Source: Acidimicrobiales bacterium
GTDB taxonomy: Bacteria > Actinomycetota > Acidimicrobiia > Acidimicrobiales > Aldehydirespiratoraceae
Direction: 5' to 3'
DNA length: 51,533 nucleotides
NCBI GenBank assembly: GCA_029263215.1
Contig: JAJCXY010000115.1
Location: 1 to 51,533, forward strand
Part shown: positions 16,095 through 23,971 of the stretch, piece after piece
Numbering within the stretch: position 1 is the stretch's first letter
How the letters are laid out: each line of letters starts with the position of its first letter
Position numbers and translations under genes: made by a program
Notes under the pieces: model-generated
Seen by the model: the letters and a program-made list of their open reading frames with translations, nothing else
Databases searched by the model: none
Told to the model about the DNA's origin: nothing

Positions 16095-16946
16095 ATGTCA
16101 AATTCGATCCTCAGTGAGGTCCGGAGCGAACCCCGACTTGTGGGCCGTTACGCCCGAAGCGCTTGGCAGAGTCGGGTGCTGGGTCCGGCAACGGCGGCTC
16201 GCCGTCCCGGTGCCGTTGCGATCTTTCACGCGGGTCGGTGCGGAAGTACGGTCCTCACCGACCAGATGGAGCAGCATTCTGCCGTCTACAGCGACGGAGA
16301 GACCTACGTTCGGGTCATCGAGGCTGCCAGAGCCGATGGGATCCATCCCGACGAGACCGGAATCGATCCTGTCCGATATGTGGCCGAGCGTCTTCGCCGT
16401 TCTGGCCGGCATTGGTTCATGTACGACCTCAAGTTCGACCACGTCACCCGGCTCGGCATGAGTCTGGCCGAGTACGTCGAACGGATAGCCGCAGTGGGGG
16501 TCGACCACTGGGTGGTTCTTCGTCGCCGCAACCTGTTGCGCAAGCTTGTGTCGGGTCTGATGGCGGGAGAGCGGGGGGCCTACCACTCCACCGACCCTGC
16601 GGCGGTCGAGCGTTTGCAGATCCATATCGACGTCGACGCGGTGTGGATGGATGGTCGGTTGGACTCCATCACCGGACACTTCCACCGGGTGAACGCGCTC
16701 TACGACGAGTTCGCGGTCTTGACGAAGGGCCGCGATGTGCTCAGCCTCGGGTACGAAGCCGATATTTCCGAGAATCCAGGAGTCGCTTACGACAAGACCC
16801 TCGCGTTTCTCGGGCTCGAGTCGACGCCGGCGGAGGTGAGGCTGCAACGGTTGAACCCCTTCGCGCTGGGCGATGTGATCGACAACTTCGGCGAGGTGGA
16901 GGCGGCGTTGAACGGAACCGAGCACGCCTGGATGATCAACGCCTAG
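16095..16946 (+). CDS. Sulfotransferase family protein
   Basis: A protein of about 283 residues with the 5'-phosphosulfate-binding loop of PAPS-dependent sulfotransferases (AIFHAGRCGSTVL, equivalent to the RSGST loop) and a 3'-phosphate site around VVLRRRNLLRKLVSGL. It probably transfers sulfate to a sugar or lipid hydroxyl. It closes the cassette with C-methyltransferase, deacetylase and epimerase, which suggests a sulfated, C-methylated surface glycan. Two ATGs are possible, at 16056 and 16095; I prefer 16095 because the intervening 13 codons have low GC at third positions, unlike the rest of the gene. Neither start has a good ribosome site. Confidence 0.75.
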   Translation: MSNSILSEVRSEPRLVGRYARSAWQSRVLGPATAARRPGAVAIFHAGRCGSTVLTDQMEQHSAVYSDGETYVRVIEAARADGIHPDETGIDPVRYVAERLRRSGRHWFMYDLKFDHVTRLGMSLAEYVERIAAVGVDHWVVLRRRNLLRKLVSGLMAGERGAYHSTDPAAVERLQIHIDVDAVWMDGRLDSITGHFHRVNALYDEFAVLTKGRDVLSLGYEADISENPGVAYDKTLAFLGLESTPAEVRLQRLNPFALGDVIDNFGEVEAALNGTEHAWMINA

Positions 16947-16972
16947 CTCGGGGTGATTGGTGAGGAAACGCC

Positions 16973-17938
16973 TCAGCTCTGTAGGTGGGCGGGTACCGCC
17001 ACACCCATTTCAGCCGCGAGAGGGTTGAGCCCTGCGCCGACAGGAGCGCCGATGGCGTCGAGGCTGCGGTTCATCATCGAGAAGTTGCCGGCCACCATCG
17101 CGATTCGGTCGGCTCCGTCTCGCCCCAGCGCCAGTTCGGCTCGCACTCGGGCGTCGGGGTACTCGTCGTGGTCGCCAAGCACGGTGGCGTCGATGAGTGC
17201 CCTTATCGCATCGCCGTTCTTCACGCCGCAGTTGCCCACTCCCTCGGTGATCGTCCGGCAGTTGAGCTCGGCGCCCTCGATGCGCTTGATGCTCGCACGG
17301 AGCATCGAAGTGTGGGCCAACATTCAATAGAAACACTCGTTGAGCCAGCTGGTGCGACCCGCGGCGAGTTCCATCTGGGTGCGGTGGATGCCGTCGCGTT
17401 CGATATCGAGATCACCCATCTGTTCGAGACTGAGGTAGAGCACGCCGTGCACGTCGAACATGGCGTCGACCTCGGGAGGAACGGCACTCATGCACGCGGG
17501 CGCGTTGGCCGGTCCCACGGTGGGGACCCAGCCCGTGGTGACCTCGGCATCGGCGGGCTTGTCGCGAGTCGGTTCACCGGGGAGGGGATCCGGGAGGGGT
17601 CGTTCATCGATCCCGAGCCCGAACGAGGCGACATCGATGGCGGTGAGTCGGCTGACGATTCCGACCAGTTCGACGTAGGCGAAGCCGTCGAGGCCGCCAT
17701 CGGCCCAACGCTCGAGGTCGACGGCTCGAATACTTGCCGCTTCCACTGCCACGCGACGGGCCGCTTCGGTGGCTGGGTCGGAGAGCACACCAGCGGTGTC
17801 GAGGTGCCGACTTGCACGGCGGGCTTCGTCGGCGATCGCTACCCGCTGGACGCCGCTCCACCAGGTGCCCGGCGAGGCGAGTCGTTGCCATTCTCGGTCG
17901 ACGAGTTGGTCGAACTCGGTGAGTAGCGCTGTCGTCAT
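16973..17938 (-). CDS. Selenocysteine-containing AhpD/CMD-family peroxidase-like protein (in-frame TGA at 17324-17326)
   Basis: Read through the TGA, this is one 321-residue protein of the alkylhydroperoxidase D/carboxymuconolactone decarboxylase family. The N-terminal half (from MTTALLTEFDQLVDREW) matches the helical repeat of the two-domain actinobacterial members. The C-terminal half carries the AhpD core E-C-x-x-C-x-x-x-H, seen here as Glu201-Cys202-Phe-Tyr-TGA205-Met-Leu-Ala-His209. The TGA falls exactly on the second, peroxidatic cysteine of AhpD. The same frame continues for 116 family-like codons, and a SECIS-type hairpin lies just downstream. The expected role is thiol/selenol-dependent reduction of organic hydroperoxides. 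It is the last gene of the minus-strand hpa arm, 55 bases after hpaI. The alternative is a nonsense mutation or a sequencing error at one base of a Cys codon. Confidence 0.8.
17288..17306 (-). promoter_or_regulatory. Predicted bacterial SECIS element (hairpin in the coding RNA)
   Basis: On the minus strand the RNA reads GAUGCUC-CGUGC-GAGCAUC: a perfect 7-bp stem closed by a 5-nt loop. The stem begins 17 nt after the UGA and the loop 24 nt after it. Bacterial SECIS elements bind SelB, sit inside the coding region immediately 3' of the UGA, and need a G near the 5' side of the apical loop. All three conditions are met here (loop positions 2-3 are G-U). No sel genes lie in the window to confirm the machinery. 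Confidence 0.7.
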
Positions 17939-17993
17939 TGCTCCATCATGGCTGCTGGGAGGGGTTGGTAGCGGGCGGTGGACCGCGAGAAGC

Positions 17994-18758
17994 TCAGTTG
18001 CCCTTCCACCGGTCGGCCAGCGACTTCGTGGCGGCCGCGAGGAGGTAGGTGTCGACGCCGACCGCCACGAACCCGGCACCGGCATCCAGATACGTCCGGA
18101 TGAGTTCGTCGCCTTGGGCAAGAACGCCTGAGGCCTTGCCTGTGGCGTTGATCCGATGGATCGCCGCGTTGACGATCTGGCGCACGTCGGCGTGGTCGGC
18201 CTGGCCCAGATAGCCGAGGGAAGCGCCGAGATCGGACGGCCCCACGAAGAGGGCGTCGACCCCGTCGACAGCGGCGATCTCTTCGATGTTGTCGAGTCCT
18301 GCCGCCGACTCGATCTGCAGCACCAGGCAGGCTTCGTCGTTGGCTCGGGCGAAGTAGTTTTCGACCCGTCCCCAGCGAGCGGCCCGTGCAGTGGAGACGC
18401 CGCGGACACCGGCGGGTGGATAGCGAACGGCTGCCACCATTTGCCGAGCCTGATCGGCTGTTTCCACCATCGGCACCACGATGGTTTGGGCACCGATATC
18501 CATGACCTGCTTGATGAGCGCCGTGTCGCCCTGGCTGACCCGGACGATGACCGAGGTGGGATAGGCCGCAGTTGCCTGGAGTTGGGCGAGCACGGTGCGC
18601 AGGTCGTTGGGGCCGTGTTCGGCATCGATGGTGAGGAAGTCGAAACCGGCGGTGGCCGCGATCTCGCTGGTGACGGGATCGGCGAGGCTGCACCAGATCC
18701 CGAATTGGGCTCCGGGATCGATGAGTCGACGTTTGAATTGGTTGAGCGGTATGTCCAC
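17994..18758 (-). CDS. hpaI: HpcH/HpaI family aldolase (4-hydroxy-2-oxo-heptanedioate aldolase-like)
   Basis: A 254-residue class II pyruvate aldolase that would split 4-hydroxy-2-oxoheptane-1,7-dioate into pyruvate and succinate semialdehyde, the last step of the homoprotocatechuate meta-pathway. Family landmarks are GIWCSLADP, FLTIDAEHGPND (base histidine), QIESAAGLDNIEEI (metal-binding Glu) and FVGPSDLGASLG (metal-binding Asp). I place the start at GTG 18758, which has AAGGA six bases upstream and gives the family-like beginning VDIPLNQFKRRL. It lies 22 bases downstream of hpaH in the same operon. Other HpaI-fold aldolases are possible, but the neighbours fit this pathway. Confidence 0.85.
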   Translation of the reverse strand: MDIPLNQFKRRLIDPGAQFGIWCSLADPVTSEIAATAGFDFLTIDAEHGPNDLRTVLAQLQATAAYPTSVIVRVSQGDTALIKQVMDIGAQTIVVPMVETADQARQMVAAVRYPPAGVRGVSTARAARWGRVENYFARANDEACLVLQIESAAGLDNIEEIAAVDGVDALFVGPSDLGASLGYLGQADHADVRQIVNAAIHRINATGKASGVLAQGDELIRTYLDAGAGFVAVGVDTYLLAAATKSLADRWKGN

Positions 18759-18780
18759 AGGCTGTCCTTGGTGTGAAGAG

Positions 18781-19587
18781 CTATACGAACGGCATCTCGA
18801 ACGAGCCGAGTGGGCCGTAGTCGGCGAGGAAGTGGTCGCCGGGTTGGACGGCCACCGGGCGGGTGAATGATCCGGCAAGGATCGTGTGGCCCGCCTCGAG
18901 CACCATCTTGTGCTCGGCGTAGCGGCGAGCCAGCCAGACAATGCCGTTGGCGGGGTGACCGAGCACGCCGCCCGCGAGTCCGGTCTCCTCCACCACCCCG
19001 TTCTTCGTCAGCATCGCCCCGACCCAGCGCAGGTCGACCTGGAGCGGGTCGATGGAAGCACCGCCGGTGATGATGCCGGCGTCGGCGGCATTGTCGGAGA
19101 TGGTGTCGATGACCGTGCGGGTTCGGCCCGTCACGGGGTCGGTGCGATACGAGCGCGCCGCGATCATCTCGATCGCGGCGATCACGTGATCGGTTGCGTC
19201 GAGAACATCGTCGATCGTGAGGTCGTGTCCGACAAGGTCATGTGCGAGCACGAACGCGAGTTCCATCTCGATCTTGAGATCAGGGAAGCGAGATGCTTCG
19301 ATCTCGGTGTCGGGCGCGAACACCATGTCGTCGGTGAGGAAACCCGAGTCGGGTGTGGTGATGTTCATCGCCTGCTGCATCGCTCGCGACGTGAGGCCGA
19401 TCTTGTGGCCGACGAGCCGTTGGCCCCTCGCCAGTTTGAGTTCACGCCAGGCCGCCTGTACCGCGTAGGCGTCGTCGATGGTCATGTCCGGATAGATCGA
19501 TGTGGCTTGGCGGATCTGAACCACGGAACGCTCGGCTTCGTCGAGCAGCTCGGCCTCGGCTCGGATCTCGTCTGCGCTGAGTGGCAT
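18781..19587 (-). CDS. hpaH: 2-oxo-hept-4-ene-1,7-dioate hydratase (HpaH-like)
   Basis: A 268-residue member of the FAH-fold hydratase family (HpaH, MhpD, XylJ), which adds water to 2-oxo-hept-4-ene-1,7-dioate before aldol cleavage. Recognisable segments are LVGHKIGLTSRAMQ, KIEMELAFVLAHDL (metal-binding glutamates), AAIEMIAARSY and GHPANGIVWLAR, ending with GSFEMPFV. It sits three bases after the quinone oxidoreductase stop and just before hpaI, in the order of pathway use. The closest alternative is a 2-oxopent-4-enoate hydratase. Confidence 0.88.
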   Translation of the reverse strand: MPLSADEIRAEAELLDEAERSVVQIRQATSIYPDMTIDDAYAVQAAWRELKLARGQRLVGHKIGLTSRAMQQAMNITTPDSGFLTDDMVFAPDTEIEASRFPDLKIEMELAFVLAHDLVGHDLTIDDVLDATDHVIAAIEMIAARSYRTDPVTGRTRTVIDTISDNAADAGIITGGASIDPLQVDLRWVGAMLTKNGVVEETGLAGGVLGHPANGIVWLARRYAEHKMVLEAGHTILAGSFTRPVAVQPGDHFLADYGPLGSFEMPFV

Positions 19588-19590
19588 GAA

Positions 19591-20559
19591 TCAGACCGTG
19601 AGGAGGATCTTGCCGGTGGTGGAGCGGCTCTCGAGGGCCCGATGGGCCTCGCCCGCGTCGGCCAACGGAAAGGTGTGACCGACCCGTACTTCGAGGAGAC
19701 CATTGCGAGCCCAGCCGGTGATCTCGTTCCAGCGCTCGTCGCGGGCCTCGGTGGTGGCTATGTAGTCGCCGAGCTTGGGCCGGGTGAGAAAGAGCGACTT
19801 TGGCATAAGGGTGAGTGGGGTGATGGCCGGGACCGGGCCGGAGGCGTTACCGAACGTGGCCATCGTGCCTCTCGGCGCCAGCAGCTCGAGTCCGGCGTCG
19901 AAGGTGGCCGCACCCACGCCGTCGTAGACGACATCGATCGCGTTCTTGCCGACGGCGTTCTCCACTCCTTCGACGAGGTCGGTGGTGGAGTAGTTGATGA
20001 CATGGTCGGCGCCGGCCGAGCGGGCGAGTTCGGCCTTTTCGTCGGTGCCGACGCTGGCGACGACTTCGGCTCCGCGAAGCTTGGCCATCTGCACCATCAG
20101 GCGACCCGTTCCTCCTGCTGCGGCGTGGATGAGACAGCGGTCGCCGTCGCCGAGCGGGTAGGTGCTGGTGGTCAGGTAGTGGGCGGTCATCCCTTGCAGG
20201 GGGGTTGCGGCCGCGTGGCTGAGGGTCATTTCCTGGGGTACGGGCATGGCAGCCGAAGCCGGAACCGACAATCGAGTGGCATAGGAGCCGGGTGCGCCCA
20301 CCCACGCGATCCGGTCGCCGATCGCGAGATTGTCGATCCCGTCGCCGATCTCGGTGACGGTGCCGCTGCCCTCGCTGCCGACTCCGAACGGAAGGGGCAG
20401 TTCGTAGAGCCCCGACCGATGGTAGGTGTCGATGAAGTTGACGCCCGCCGCGTGGACATCGACCACGACGTGGCCGGGGCCCGCTACCGGATCGTCGACC
20501 TCGACCCATTCGAGAACGTCGTAGCCGCCCGGGTTGCGAACCTGAATTGCGTGTGTCAT
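19591..20559 (-). CDS. NADPH:quinone reductase-like oxidoreductase (zinc-free MDR)
   Basis: A 322-residue quinone oxidoreductase of the QOR/zeta-crystallin type. It lacks zinc ligands, has the signature GVNFIDTYHRSGLY and the NADPH-binding AAAGGTGRLMVQMAK, and ends with GHTFPLADAGEAHRALESR. It reduces quinones or activated enones with NADPH. The ATG at 20559 overlaps the stop of the MarR regulator (ATGA at 20556-20559) and has AGGAG eight bases upstream. A QOR is not part of the standard hpa pathway; here it may deal with quinones formed when homoprotocatechuate auto-oxidises, which is inference. Confidence 0.87.
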   Translation of the reverse strand: MTHAIQVRNPGGYDVLEWVEVDDPVAGPGHVVVDVHAAGVNFIDTYHRSGLYELPLPFGVGSEGSGTVTEIGDGIDNLAIGDRIAWVGAPGSYATRLSVPASAAMPVPQEMTLSHAAATPLQGMTAHYLTTSTYPLGDGDRCLIHAAAGGTGRLMVQMAKLRGAEVVASVGTDEKAELARSAGADHVINYSTTDLVEGVENAVGKNAIDVVYDGVGAATFDAGLELLAPRGTMATFGNASGPVPAITPLTLMPKSLFLTRPKLGDYIATTEARDERWNEITGWARNGLLEVRVGHTFPLADAGEAHRALESRSTTGKILLTV

Positions 20560-21047
20560 TGCGAGTGCTCCTGGGAATGGGTCGTATCGATGGAGGCCAG
20601 TTGCTCGAGAAGTTCGTGGAGTTGGCTGAGGCGAGTATCGCCGATGGCGGCCTCGATGTCGGCATAGAGCGCTTCTGACAACGGTGCGACGCTCCGAACG
20701 AGACGGTGGCCATCGGTGGATAAGCTGATCGCCGCTCGCCGATGGTCGTGGGAGGCCGTTTGCCGTTCGATCAGTTCGCGTTGTTCGAGATTGGCGAGGA
20801 TCCGCGACAACGAAGGACCGAGCAGGAAGGTGTGTTCGATGAGATCGCCGACCTCGAGGGGATCGGTGGCGTCGGCGAGAGCCCTCAGCACCCGCCACTG
20901 CTGCTCGGTTAGGCCGTGCTCGCCGAGCAAGGGTCTGAAGCTCCTCATTGCTGCTTCCCGGGCCCGCATTAGTGCCATCGGGAGTGAACGCGAGAAAGCG
21001 CGCATGCCGATGTCGGGCTGGGTGATCGTCTCGGAACTCCCGGCCAT
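20556..21047 (-). CDS. hpaR: MarR family regulator, HpaR-like
   Basis: A 163-residue winged-helix regulator. The start MRAFSRSLPMALMRAREAAM and the recognition region HGLTEQQWRVLRALA...LGPSLSRILANLEQRELIER match HpaR, the repressor of homoprotocatechuate degradation operons that is released by aromatic pathway intermediates. It lies three bases after the FAH gene stop and overlaps the quinone reductase start, so it is autoregulated with the operon. Its likely operator is the ATGT-N3-ACAT palindrome in the divergent promoter region at 21983-21993. Confidence 0.85.
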   Translation of the reverse strand: MAGSSETITQPDIGMRAFSRSLPMALMRAREAAMRSFRPLLGEHGLTEQQWRVLRALADATDPLEVGDLIEHTFLLGPSLSRILANLEQRELIERQTASHDHRRAAISLSTDGHRLVRSVAPLSEALYADIEAAIGDTRLSQLHELLEQLASIDTTHSQEHSQ

Positions 21048-21050
21048 GGT

Positions 21051-21947
21051 TTAGACGGGCTCGGGAGGGGGGATCTCGCGGCCGTCGGTGAATTCGTCGC
21101 GGATGGTGTTTCGCAGGGTTCCGATCTCAGGCACCGCGACTTCGACCACATCGCCCGGTTGGAGCCAGATCGGAGGATCGAAGCGGGCTCCTGCGCCGGT
21201 AGGGGTGCCGGTGAAGATCAGGTCGCCCGGAGCGAGGTTGGTGAAGGTGGACAGATAGTGGATCTGATACTCGATCGAATACTTCATCGTGGCGGGCGTG
21301 TCGTCTTGTCGAAGTTCGCCGTTGACCCTGGTGGTGAGGTGCAACTCCTCGAAGTCGCCGATCTCGTCGATGGGAACGAGCCAGGGACCGATCGCGCCGG
21401 TGGACTCCCAGTTCTTGCCCTGGGTGACGTTGAACTTGGCGTGGCGCACCCAATCGCGGATGGTGCCCTCGTTGCCGAGGGTGAGTCCGGCGACGTGATT
21501 GCGGGCTTTCTCGATCGGGATGCGTCGCCCTGACTTGCCGATCACCACCACGATCTCACCTTCGTAGTCGAGTTGGGGAGATTCGGGTGGGCGGACGAGG
21601 TCGCGGTTGTGGCCGGTGAAACCATCGGGCCAGCGAGGGAAGACACTTGGGTAGGCCGCGTCGGACCTGTCGTCGTATTCGGCGGCCCGACCCCCGTAGT
21701 TGACGCCGATGCAAAAGATCTTGCGAGGCCACGGGAGCAGGCGCTCGAAGGTGATGTCGGCGACTGGGTGATCGGTCGTTGCGTTGCGAGCCAACGCCAG
21801 CGCCTCATCGATTCGGTCGGTGGAGATGATGTCGTGGAGATCGGTGATGTCGGCCATCCGCTCCGGTAGCGAGACGATGCCGGATCCATCATCGGTGAGC
21901 GCACCGACGGAGTGGATGCCATTCACGGAGTAGCTCAGCAGGCGCAT
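21051..21947 (-). CDS. hpaG: Fumarylacetoacetate hydrolase family protein (HpaG-like decarboxylase/isomerase)
   Basis: A 298-residue FAH-fold enzyme and first gene of the minus-strand hpa arm. Landmarks are KIFCIGVNYGGRAAEY, QLDYEGEIVVVIGKSGRRI (metal-binding Glu residues), LTLGNEGTIRDW, KNWESTGAIGPWLV and DLIFTGTPTGAGARFDPP. It would act as 5-oxopent-3-ene-1,2,5-tricarboxylate decarboxylase and/or 2-hydroxyhepta-2,4-diene-1,7-dioate isomerase. It is single-domain, unlike the two-domain E. coli HpaG, so a second FAH protein may be needed (one lies at 26665-27492). The ATG at 21947 faces the divergent hpaF. Confidence 0.83.
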   Translation of the reverse strand: MRLLSYSVNGIHSVGALTDDGSGIVSLPERMADITDLHDIISTDRIDEALALARNATTDHPVADITFERLLPWPRKIFCIGVNYGGRAAEYDDRSDAAYPSVFPRWPDGFTGHNRDLVRPPESPQLDYEGEIVVVIGKSGRRIPIEKARNHVAGLTLGNEGTIRDWVRHAKFNVTQGKNWESTGAIGPWLVPIDEIGDFEELHLTTRVNGELRQDDTPATMKYSIEYQIHYLSTFTNLAPGDLIFTGTPTGAGARFDPPIWLQPGDVVEVAVPEIGTLRNTIRDEFTDGREIPPPEPV

Positions 21948-22049
21948 GGCGCTGGGGTCTCTCTTTCCTCAAACTGTTTCACATGTTATACATCTACCCT
22001 ACATGCGTAAAGCCCCGAGGGGCCGAACCCAGCCAGTGCGGAGGATCCC
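21948..22049. promoter_or_regulatory. Divergent hpa promoter/operator region
   Basis: A 102-base AT-richer island between the two hpa arms. At 21983-21993 lies the perfect palindrome ATGT-TAT-ACAT. It contains a minus-strand TATAAC box (21985-21990), 57 bases past which no other gene lies on that side except hpaG, whose ATG is about 37 bases downstream of the box; a plus-strand TATACAT (21988-21993) lies about 57 bases before the hpaF start. A further ACATG occurs at 22001-22005. A MarR dimer on the palindrome would block both promoters. GGAGG at 22040-22044 is the hpaF ribosome site. Exact promoter boxes are my inference. Confidence 0.5.
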
Positions 22050-22442
22050 TTGCCCCACATCATCATCGAGCACAGCGCCAACCTCAGCGCCGCGCACGAC
22101 ATCCAGTCGCTGGTCGATGCCGTTCATGAGGCCGCCCTCGACAACGGTCTTCCCCAGCTCGACGCACTGCGCACTCGGGCCGCGGAGCGTACCCACTACC
22201 GAATCGCCGATGGCGACCCCACCCACGCGTTCGTGGCGGTGACCGCTCGGATCGGCCCCGGCCGCACCGATGAGGAGATCCAGCGCTTCCTCAACTGCCT
22301 CATCGACACCGTCGACGCCGAACTGGCGCCTGTCTCGGATCGGCACGCGGTCGCACTCAGTGCCGAGATCCAGTTCATCGATCCCGAAGTCCGTATCAAC
22401 CGAAATCACGTGCGCAGTCGTATGCAGCGAGGAGCTTCCTGA
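22050..22442 (+). CDS. hpaF: 5-carboxymethyl-2-hydroxymuconate delta-isomerase (HpaF-like)
   Basis: A 130-residue tautomerase-superfamily enzyme that isomerises 5-carboxymethyl-2-hydroxymuconate in the homoprotocatechuate pathway. The initiator methionine is followed by the catalytic proline (PHIIIEHSANL), with typical HYRIADGDPTHAFVAV and INRNHVRSRM later. The start codon is TTG at 22050, supported by GGAGG five bases upstream and by the family's conserved Met-Pro-His beginning, since Pro must be residue 2 to act as the N-terminal base. The stop overlaps the next start (TGATG at 22440-22444), coupling it to the semialdehyde dehydrogenase. Confidence 0.9.
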   Translation: MPHIIIEHSANLSAAHDIQSLVDAVHEAALDNGLPQLDALRTRAAERTHYRIADGDPTHAFVAVTARIGPGRTDEEIQRFLNCLIDTVDAELAPVSDRHAVALSAEIQFIDPEVRINRNHVRSRMQRGAS

Positions 22443-23971
22443 TGGCCGGCCCCACCCACACCTATGAAGAGAACCAGGCAGCAGCCGCCCGGCACCTCGC
22501 CCGCTTCACCGAGCAACTCATGCCCCACATCATCAACGGCGAGCAGGTGGCCAGCGTCGACGGAACGAGCTTCGCCAACCAATCGCCGATCGACGGTAGT
22601 GATCTGGGCGAAATCGCCGCAGGCGACGCGGCCGATGTCGACGCGGCTGCGAAGGCGGCTGCATCGGCCTTCGATGAGTGGGCTGACACTCCCGGCACCG
22701 AACGCAGGCGCGTGCTCAACAAGGTCGCCGATCTGATAGTCGACAACGCCCACCGGATTGCAGTGAGCGAGTGCGTCGACACCGGCCAGACCATGAGGTT
22801 CATGGGCGCAGCCGCCCTCCGGGGGGCCGACAATTTCCGCTTCTTCGCCGATCGGGCCCCGGCCGCGGCCGACGGACAGGCCCTGCCCACCACCGACCAC
22901 CTCAACTACACCTCCCGTCGTGCCATCGGCCCGGTCGGGGTGATCACACCGTGGAACACACCGTTCATGCTCTCCACCTGGAAGATTGCGCCCGCGCTCG
23001 CGGCGGGATGCACCGTGGTGCACAAGCCGGCGGAGTGGAGCCCGATCACCGCCCATCTCCTGTCGGAGATAGCGCTCGAGGCGGGCCTGCCGCCAGGCGT
23101 GCTCAACACAGTGCACGGAATGGGCGAGACCGCAGGCAAGTCGCTCACCGAACACCCCGACATCAAGGCCATTGCGTTCGTCGGCGAATCGACCACCGGC
23201 TCCATGATCCAGGCTCAGGGCGCCCCGACCCTCAAACGGGTTCATTTCGAACTCGGGGGCAAGAACCCGGTGATCGTGTTCGACGACGCCGACATCGAGA
23301 GGGCGCTCGACGCGGTGATCTTCATGATCTACAGCCTCAACGGCGAGCGCTGCACCAGTTCGAGTCGGGTGCTCATTCAGGAGTCGATCTACGACACCTT
23401 CGTCGGGCGCCTCGCCGAGAAGATGGCCGCCATCCCGGTCGGGCACCCTCTCGACCCGGCATCGGTGATCGGCCCCCTCGTTCATCCCCGTCACTGCGAG
23501 AAGGTCGAGAGCTACAGGGCCATCGCCGAACGAGACGGTGCCACCGTGATCGACGGCACTGGTTGGGTGGACGCTCCACCCGGCGGCAACTTCGTGACCC
23601 CGATGCTCTTCACCAACGCCCGTAACGACATGCGTATCGCGCAGGAGGAGATCTTCGGCCCCGCCCTCACCGCCATCCGCTTCGCCGATGAGGCCGACGC
23701 TCTCGCCATCGCCAACGACGTGGAGTATGGGCTGGCCGGCTACGTGTGGACCAACGACCTCACCCGAGCCCACCGCATGGCTGATCGCCTCGAAGTCGGA
23801 ATGGTGTGGGTCAACTCCCAAAACGTGAGACACCTCCCCACCCCGTTCGGCGGCACGAAGCGGAGCGGGATAGGCCGTGACGGCGGCGACTGGAGTTTCG
23901 ACTTCTACATGGAGACCAAGAACGTCGCGATCGCCACCGGCCGGCATCCCATCCCCCAACTCGGCGGATGA
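22442..23971 (+). CDS. hpaE: 5-carboxymethyl-2-hydroxymuconic-semialdehyde dehydrogenase-like aldehyde dehydrogenase
   Basis: A 509-residue NAD(P)-dependent aldehyde dehydrogenase. The catalytic pair is Glu270 in FELGGKNPVIVF and Cys304 in NGERCTSSSR, 34 residues apart as expected. GVITPWNTPFML and VGESTTGSMIQ form the cofactor site. It should oxidise the ring-cleavage semialdehyde to the dicarboxylate that HpaF then isomerises. The start overlaps the hpaF stop, which supports the assignment. There is a 26-residue leader before LMPHIING; an internal ATG at 22520 is possible but would break the overlap. No ring-cleaving dioxygenase or hydroxylase follows it. Confidence 0.87.
   Translation: MAGPTHTYEENQAAAARHLARFTEQLMPHIINGEQVASVDGTSFANQSPIDGSDLGEIAAGDAADVDAAAKAAASAFDEWADTPGTERRRVLNKVADLIVDNAHRIAVSECVDTGQTMRFMGAAALRGADNFRFFADRAPAAADGQALPTTDHLNYTSRRAIGPVGVITPWNTPFMLSTWKIAPALAAGCTVVHKPAEWSPITAHLLSEIALEAGLPPGVLNTVHGMGETAGKSLTEHPDIKAIAFVGESTTGSMIQAQGAPTLKRVHFELGGKNPVIVFDDADIERALDAVIFMIYSLNGERCTSSSRVLIQESIYDTFVGRLAEKMAAIPVGHPLDPASVIGPLVHPRHCEKVESYRAIAERDGATVIDGTGWVDAPPGGNFVTPMLFTNARNDMRIAQEEIFGPALTAIRFADEADALAIANDVEYGLAGYVWTNDLTRAHRMADRLEVGMVWVNSQNVRHLPTPFGGTKRSGIGRDGGDWSFDFYMETKNVAIATGRHPIPQLGG

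Follow-up and report, generated by a model that had tools for sequence, protein, structure and literature searches.

The gene on the minus strand between positions 17938 and 16973 of the window (the whole analysed stretch of 51,533 nt) is most probably a selenoprotein gene of the AhpD-related family NF041238, a reading based on comparison of sequences to which a probability of about 0.93 was assigned. That the gene belongs to this already known and curated selenoprotein family is clear. Its frame comprises 204 residues, an in-frame TGA (17326-17324), 116 further residues and a TGA stop, and the core around the in-frame codon reads NECFY-TGA-MLAH. The sequence-only reading had described a TGA at 17324-17326 of the minus strand with 204 codons before it, 116 after it and an AhpD-like core, and translation reproduced this description exactly. 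It had also predicted that a gene caller would split the gene in two, and the table-11 open reading frames show that split at the TGA: a longer upstream frame stopping there and a 116-codon frame starting from 17323. The start at 17938 was aligned with the starts of two relatives (L020 and L021). The features discussed below are listed in Table 1.

Table 1 Features of the window, with the evidence for each assignment
Feature	Position	Strand	Basis
Predicted selenoprotein gene, NF041238 family (321 aa when the TGA encodes Sec)	16973..17938	minus	translation; NF041238 235.2 bits
In-frame TGA, predicted Sec205 of the E190...C202-F-Y-U205-xxx-H209 site	17324..17326	minus	translation; alignment
Candidate SECIS hairpin (7-bp stem 17306-17300/17294-17288; 5-nt loop CGUGC 17299-17295)	17288..17306	minus	fold; alignment; pair counts; codon constraint
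N-terminal domain (residues 1-125) of AhpD-like fold, lacking the CxxC and presumably inactive	17564..17938	minus	profile match to 6k40/2oyo, E 0.004; Foldseek
Putative C-terminal catalytic AhpD (peroxidase-related) domain, residues ~149-321	16976..17494	minus	profile matches to 2pfx, 6k40, 2prr, 3c1l, 2oyo; Foldseek
HpaI-like aldolase (start approximate), directly upstream, 55 bp gap	17994..18743	minus	TIGR02311 326.5 bits, below cut-off 368.8
HpaH, 2-oxo-hept-4-ene-1,7-dioate hydratase	18781..19587	minus	TIGR02312 375 bits, above cut-off 351.5
NADPH:quinone reductase-like (QOR)	19591..20544	minus	NF008024 255 bits, below cut-off 348
HpaR, MarR-type regulator	20556..21047	minus	TIGR02337 154 bits, above cut-off 121.2
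HpaG-like FAH-family protein	21051..21947	minus	TIGR02303 162.3 bits, below cut-off 276.4
HpaF-like isomerase	22050..22442	plus	NF011605 59.2 bits, below cut-off 215
HpaE, 5-carboxymethyl-2-hydroxymuconate semialdehyde dehydrogenase	22442..23971	plus	TIGR02299 767.8 bits, above cut-off 638.35

Family assignment and distribution

The read-through protein scored 235.2 bits against the NCBIfam model NF041238 ("alkylhydroperoxidase-related (seleno)protein"; cut-off 175), and each half alone fell below the cut-off (upstream 159.5 bits, downstream 57). Residues 9-204 were aligned to positions 5-238 of the 357-position model and the downstream half to the consecutive positions 242-346. Since the two halves match one model in order, and since the equivalent codon is TGA in all relatives found in a scan of genome contigs (12/12), the open frame beyond the TGA is more than chance. 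These 12 relatives all come from Actinomycetota MAGs, nine of them with Acidimicrobiia or one of its subgroups in the title. Among 35 pattern matches from a scan of viral contigs, none was a relative. In wider searches, NF041238 exceeded its cut-off in 45 of the 296 genomes sampled from the class Acidimicrobiia and in 4 of 396 genomes of the phylum searched, all four being Acidimicrobiia.

The family alignment contains 44 rows, namely the gene itself, the 12 contig loci, 30 loci from the 296-genome search (L032-L061) and L062, which was included because it was shown without a stop. The other places over the cut-off in the 296 genomes were flagged as having one TGA irrespective of its codon position, and one of them is the second piece of a split match. 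Two reduced alignments were also used, A2 with 43 rows (without L053) and A3 with 39 rows (without five rows with short N-termini). Codon 205 is TGA in 43 of the 44 members and TGC only in L062 (G247:C4:32179-33117), whose protein is 28% identical to ours; the comparison with close relatives suggested by the sequence-only reading thus returned neither TGC nor TGT at this codon. Glu190, Cys202, position 205 (U or C) and His209 are invariant in the aligned family, and the protein carries the CxxU redox motif as C202-F-Y-U205. With the NF041238 cut-off passed and TGA nearly constant at this codon, the AhpD-like selenoprotein with a Cys-x-x-Sec site proposed from the sequence alone has held up well. 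Directly behind the TGA, 42 of the 43 TGA members have Thr, Leu, Val or Ala; Met is found only in the gene described here.

Conserved hairpin downstream of the TGA

A hairpin with stem strands GAUGCUC and GAGCAUC around the loop CGUGC starts 17 nt after the TGA, with a calculated energy of -11.7 kcal/mol. The 43 TGA rows were aligned without gaps over 69 nt in this region. The four pairs of the GCUC/GAGC core are kept in 43/43 rows, one of them with a G-U pair, and every row has G as its second loop base. The strongest evidence that the hairpin acts as a SECIS element appears to be its constraint on codon choice: all 43 of the 43 rows use CTC for the Leu at +8 and AGC or AGT for the Ser at +11, compared with 48% of the Leu and 25% of the Ser codons in the rest of these genes. 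The rows are related, and the counts are therefore not independent draws. The predicted SECIS core would thus dictate codon choice within the reading frame of NF041238 genes. Over all rows, 89.4% of the cells are paired in the hairpin structure, compared with at most 47.5% for versions slid along the alignment. Covariation was modest, with changes on both sides in two pairs and three pairs invariant; by covariation score the structure slid by +3 (0.114) came close to the hairpin itself (0.115), although it pairs only 47.5% of the cells. Folding of the single sequence was unremarkable: 62/200 shuffled sequences did as well over 48 nt (z -0.41), and over 39 nt z was -1.98.

According to the available part of a 2026 review (PMC13188914), bacterial SECIS elements have a loop of 3-9 nt, a stem of 4-16 bp, a G at loop position 1-2, a UGA-to-loop distance of 16-37 nt and a minimum free energy of at most -7.5. 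The hairpin stays within these published limits: its 7-bp stem closes a 5-nt loop with G as the second base, the loop lies 24 nt from the UGA, and the energy is -11.7 kcal/mol. These limits are permissive, and a search that asked for a loop G at a suitable distance found a fitting hairpin in the Cys form L062 too (loop AGAG, -14.3 kcal/mol), so that only the conserved GCUC/GAGC core, not the generic constraints, tells the TGA forms from L062. A constraint-based search on the gene itself preferred a larger fold with a different loop, and Rfam gave no match at E 1 in 16900-18000. The hairpin pattern occurs 68 times in the gene's own genome, fewer than in the reversed control (117), and for this reason the pattern alone is no evidence. 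Of the 68 matches, only those in the two NF041238 members are preceded by a suitably spaced TGA within a frame resembling the family; five further rows at four places were not gene-like by eye.

The conserved core is absent from L062, which has CTG at +8 and GCT at +11 instead. A Cys homologue at the Sec position, one of the marks by which bacterial selenoproteins are recognised, exists in this family as TGC. The maximum-likelihood tree places L062, whose branch is long (1.6), together with three Sec forms in a supported four-member group. Because it nests among Sec forms, its Cys looks derived from Sec, with the placement of such a long branch being unsure. In the draft genome carrying L062 (G247), selB scored 308.8 bits and no strong tRNA-Sec was found.

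Selenocysteine machinery

The genome carrying the gene is a 4.05 Mb draft of 131 contigs, 94.8% complete with 3.67% contamination. A tRNA-Sec was detected in it (64 bits; also called as tRNA-SeC by ARAGORN), and on the same contig selB (273 bits) and selA (379 bits) lie adjacent to each other, all of them over their cut-offs; selD (360 bits, over cut-off) is on another contig. The search for selA, selB, selD and tRNA-Sec proposed by the sequence-only reading thus found all four, and the selA/selB/selC/selD set by which bacterial selenoproteins are recognised is present in the genome.

Further in-frame TGA codons were seen in the same genome. The selD gene (L132) has one at the usual Sec position, and so does an fdhA-like gene (L135; 640 bits, under the cut-off of 666). 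A short AhpD-like protein of the TIGR01926 type (L150, G000:C6:18967-19533; 141 bits, over cut-off) has its TGA where expected too, reading NHCHY-TGA-VHHH, and is followed by a 6-bp hairpin with the loop GGUCU. Hairpins with the loops GGUCG and GGUCU follow the TGA codons of L132 and L135; a G in the loop was a search requirement for these three genes. There is also a second NF041238 gene with an in-frame TGA, again where expected (L048, G000:C41:105237-106208), which is 29% identical to the first, has the same GCUC/GAGC hairpin core and stands apart from it in the tree.

Among the 45 family-bearing genomes, selB was over its cut-off in 42 and a tRNA-Sec of at least 56 bits was found in 41, the 56-bit line being our own choice (42/45 pass by the tool's own cut-off). 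Only one of these genomes (G245) lacks both selB over the cut-off and a strong tRNA-Sec, yet its copy bears the TGA. When E below 1e-71 was used as a stand-in for the cut-off, selB was present in 42/45 family-bearing genomes against 119/251 other genomes of the class (Fisher 1.9e-9). This enrichment is inflated by genus g66, where tRNA-Sec is present while the selB matches stay under the curated cut-off. All 20 tested genomes of this genus have a tRNA-Sec of at least 71 bits, and so the curated selB cut-off evidently misses them. The g66 genomes are small (0.6-1.1 Mb) and contain short AhpD-like genes, which read NECEY-TGA in the three examples L154, L155 and L156.

Probable domain architecture and proposed function

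An AlphaFold2 model built from the 43-row A2 alignment is nearly all-helical (pLDDT 97.2). Residues ~150-297 match peroxidase-related AhpD structures by profile (2pfx, E 2.8e-13). In each of the five alignments to solved structures that were inspected, E190, C202, Y204, U205 and H209 stand opposite E, C, Y, C and H. The Glu...Cys-x-x-Cys/Sec-x-x-x-His relay of AhpD-like proteins is thus found in an all-helical model fold. A Foldseek search of the full model against the PDB gave no match at E 0.001 (best 0.018), and its top ranks were peroxidase-related AhpD structures. When modelled alone (pLDDT 97.4), the N-terminal 125 residues gave AhpD-like structures at all of ranks 1-15 (E 0.14 or worse, TM-scores 0.43-0.63). 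Their profile matched the C-terminal half of 6k40 and 2oyo at E 0.004; Gag proteins at chance level appear in the same list from E 0.14 onwards. With hhalign no significant similarity was seen between the two halves (probability 2.3%); the only links between them are the profiles, which match solved AhpD proteins (E 0.004), and the fold. Judged from these models and profiles, the protein probably consists of two fused AhpD-like domains, of which only the C-terminal one has an active site. The two-domain form claimed from sequence alone agrees with the profile and Foldseek matches, weakly so for the N-terminal part.

The comparative evidence suggests that SelB with Sec-tRNA reads UGA 17326-17324 and yields a protein of 321 residues; the proposed reason for this recoding is the SECIS hairpin starting 17 nt downstream. 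In the C-terminal domain, Glu190, Cys202, Tyr204, Sec205 and His209 would occupy the proton-relay positions of AhpD. By homology, Sec205 would likely reduce hydroperoxides or a protein disulfide, with Cys202 as the resolving residue and a thiol donor recycling the site; in AhpD the second Cys of the CxxC is the peroxidatic residue. The N-terminal domain, which has no CxxC, may substitute for a dimer partner. Peroxide or disulfide reduction is, by analogy with AhpD, the somewhat favoured activity of the protein.

Gene neighbourhood and alternative explanations

The region 17994-23971 holds a homoprotocatechuate-type degradation set with a quinone reductase gene inside it (Table 1). The sequence-only reading had placed the gene at the end of an aromatic-degradation operon; homoprotocatechuate-pathway genes do precede it here, but the arrangement is not kept across the family. 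In all three closest relatives (L020, L021 and L022) a QOR homologue with 68-70% identity lies directly upstream, and no HpaH, HpaI, HpaR, HpaF or HpaE match was found around them at E 1e-6 (L020 being a contig of 3.7 kb); in L022 an FAH match (32%) lies 3 kb upstream. An FAH-family gene, 32-34% identical to the HpaG-like protein, ends within ~175 bp upstream in L023-L026 and L028. L029 has an FAH match further upstream, with a DUF6159 gene in between, and in L029-L031 an HpaI-like match (33-35%) lies ~3 kb downstream on the opposite strand. The 20 upstream frames scanned from the 44 rows belong mostly to unrelated families (ketol-acid reductoisomerase, phosphoglucose isomerase, CMAS, GTPase, sigma factor); they were picked by a crude ORF chooser, and one of them (L032) is on the opposite strand. 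The aromatic-degradation neighbourhood therefore appears to be local and not a family trait, and as a link to the pathway it is no more than a lead. Because it is not conserved, a family-wide hpa-specific role was rejected.

For this gene alone, the same-strand position 55 bp behind the HpaI-like gene, with HpaH, QOR, HpaR and the HpaG-like gene further upstream, would fit a selenoprotein specific to aromatic degradation, for example one acting on quinones or peroxides that arise as by-products when homoprotocatechuate is cleaved, rather than one with a general redox role. The QOR homologues of the closest relatives, the FAH-family genes of L023-L026 and L028 and the HpaI-like matches of L029-L031 point the same way, whereas the missing Hpa matches in L020-L022 and the unrelated upstream families make such a specialised role unlikely. 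A wider proposal is only slightly less doubtful: a single-chain AhpD pseudo-dimer with one half lacking the redox motif and the other Sec-dependent, spread across Acidimicrobiia in at most two copies per sampled genome, which in the lineage of this gene was recruited beside a quinone reductase against peroxides or quinones from aromatic catabolism. It was also considered that the selenoprotein may be no peroxidase but a carboxymuconolactone-decarboxylase-like or other non-redox CMD enzyme, as the weak Pfam CMD match (19.5 bits, cut-off 23) and CMD matches at E 0.01 in 42/43 members could suggest. This is very unlikely given the invariant Glu, C-x-x-U/C and following His, and given that the closest solved structures are peroxidase-related. 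Gamma-carboxymuconolactone decarboxylase members lack CxxC according to the available part of PMC3141380; our protein has CxxU and stays below the CMD cut-off. Its score against the peroxidase-related model TIGR01926 was 25.1 bits, under the cut-off of 81.8.

Two further explanations dispense with selenocysteine. Since ATG directly follows the TGA in this gene, the TGA might be a true stop after a 204-residue product, with a separate protein starting at 17323. We consider this hardly credible: Met follows the TGA in only 1 of 43 TGA members, on which ground it was rejected, the C-x-x-U-x-x-x-H motif would be cut, and neither half alone reaches the NF041238 cut-off. The TGA could also be an artefact of sequencing or assembly, or a nonsense mutation of a Cys codon in this strain alone, which would leave an ordinary AhpD-like enzyme or a pseudogene; the draft state of the assembly and the existence of a Cys form could be taken to suggest this. 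The chance of this is negligible, and it was rejected because 42 other copies, some of them close relatives of each other, carry TGA at the same codon; the conserved hairpin core after the TGA speaks against it as well. Moreover, against the three closest relatives dN/dS (NG86) is as low after the TGA (0.095-0.183; 0.07-0.17 without the first 13 codons) as before it (0.135-0.212), and for the more distant L023 and L026 the corresponding ranges are 0.39-0.44 downstream and 0.37-0.38 upstream of the TGA. The selenoprotein reading is therefore retained.

Comparison with known systems

A new selenoprotein family with a CxxU motif was described as "hypothetical protein 1" in the Sargasso Sea selenoproteome of 2005 (available part of PMC1088965), and a table in the accessible text of the 2026 review equates it with NF041238 (PMC13188914). 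In our literature search the string CFYUT was not found, NF041238 was named only in that review, and the combination of "selenoprotein" and "Acidimicrobi" gave only papers which, by title and abstract start, are apparently unrelated. The literature on NF041238, as far as its text was available, holds little beyond name and motif, and neither the two-domain reading nor the Acidimicrobiia distribution was found in it. What is added here for the family is its class-wide distribution (45/296), the predicted SECIS core, a natural Cys form without this core and the two-domain model. The gene leaves the understanding of selenocysteine use unchanged, and it provides a clean example of a gene cut in two by table-11 ORF calling in mostly uncultured actinobacteria.

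Like AhpD_rel_CFYUT, as NF041238 or "hypothetical protein 1" is also named, the protein matches the model over its whole length above the cut-off and has CxxU and a predicted SECIS element after the UGA. It differs in having Met after Sec (CFYUM), and its setting is an Acidimicrobiia genome in which the Sec machinery is complete, a paralogue is present and hpa genes are the neighbours. The AhpD of M. tuberculosis (1gu9, 1knc) was matched by profile at E 0.0006, with positions 176-228 on residues 109-164 of the chain. Its site residues Glu118, Cys130, Cys133 and His137, as given in the available part of PMC3141380, would fall on E190, C202, U205 and H209 when counted without gaps from the start of the match. 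The M. tuberculosis enzyme has Cys at the second site, has a different topology and works with AhpC. The profile of residues ~144-296 aligned to most of each chain of the TIGR01926-type structures 2pfx, 6k40, 2prr, 3c1l and 2oyo (E 2.8e-13 to 5.9e-11). These are single-domain proteins of 188-197 aa with Cys-x-x-Cys, whereas the protein described here would have an extra N-terminal AhpD-like part and Sec. Sestrin2 also consists of two AhpD-like halves, one of which is active, and its structures 5dj4 and 5t0n gave weak, non-significant whole-length Foldseek matches to our model (TMq 0.29 and 0.41, E 0.16 and 0.5). The redox site of Sestrin2 is in its N-terminal half, whereas that of the present protein would be in the C-terminal half.
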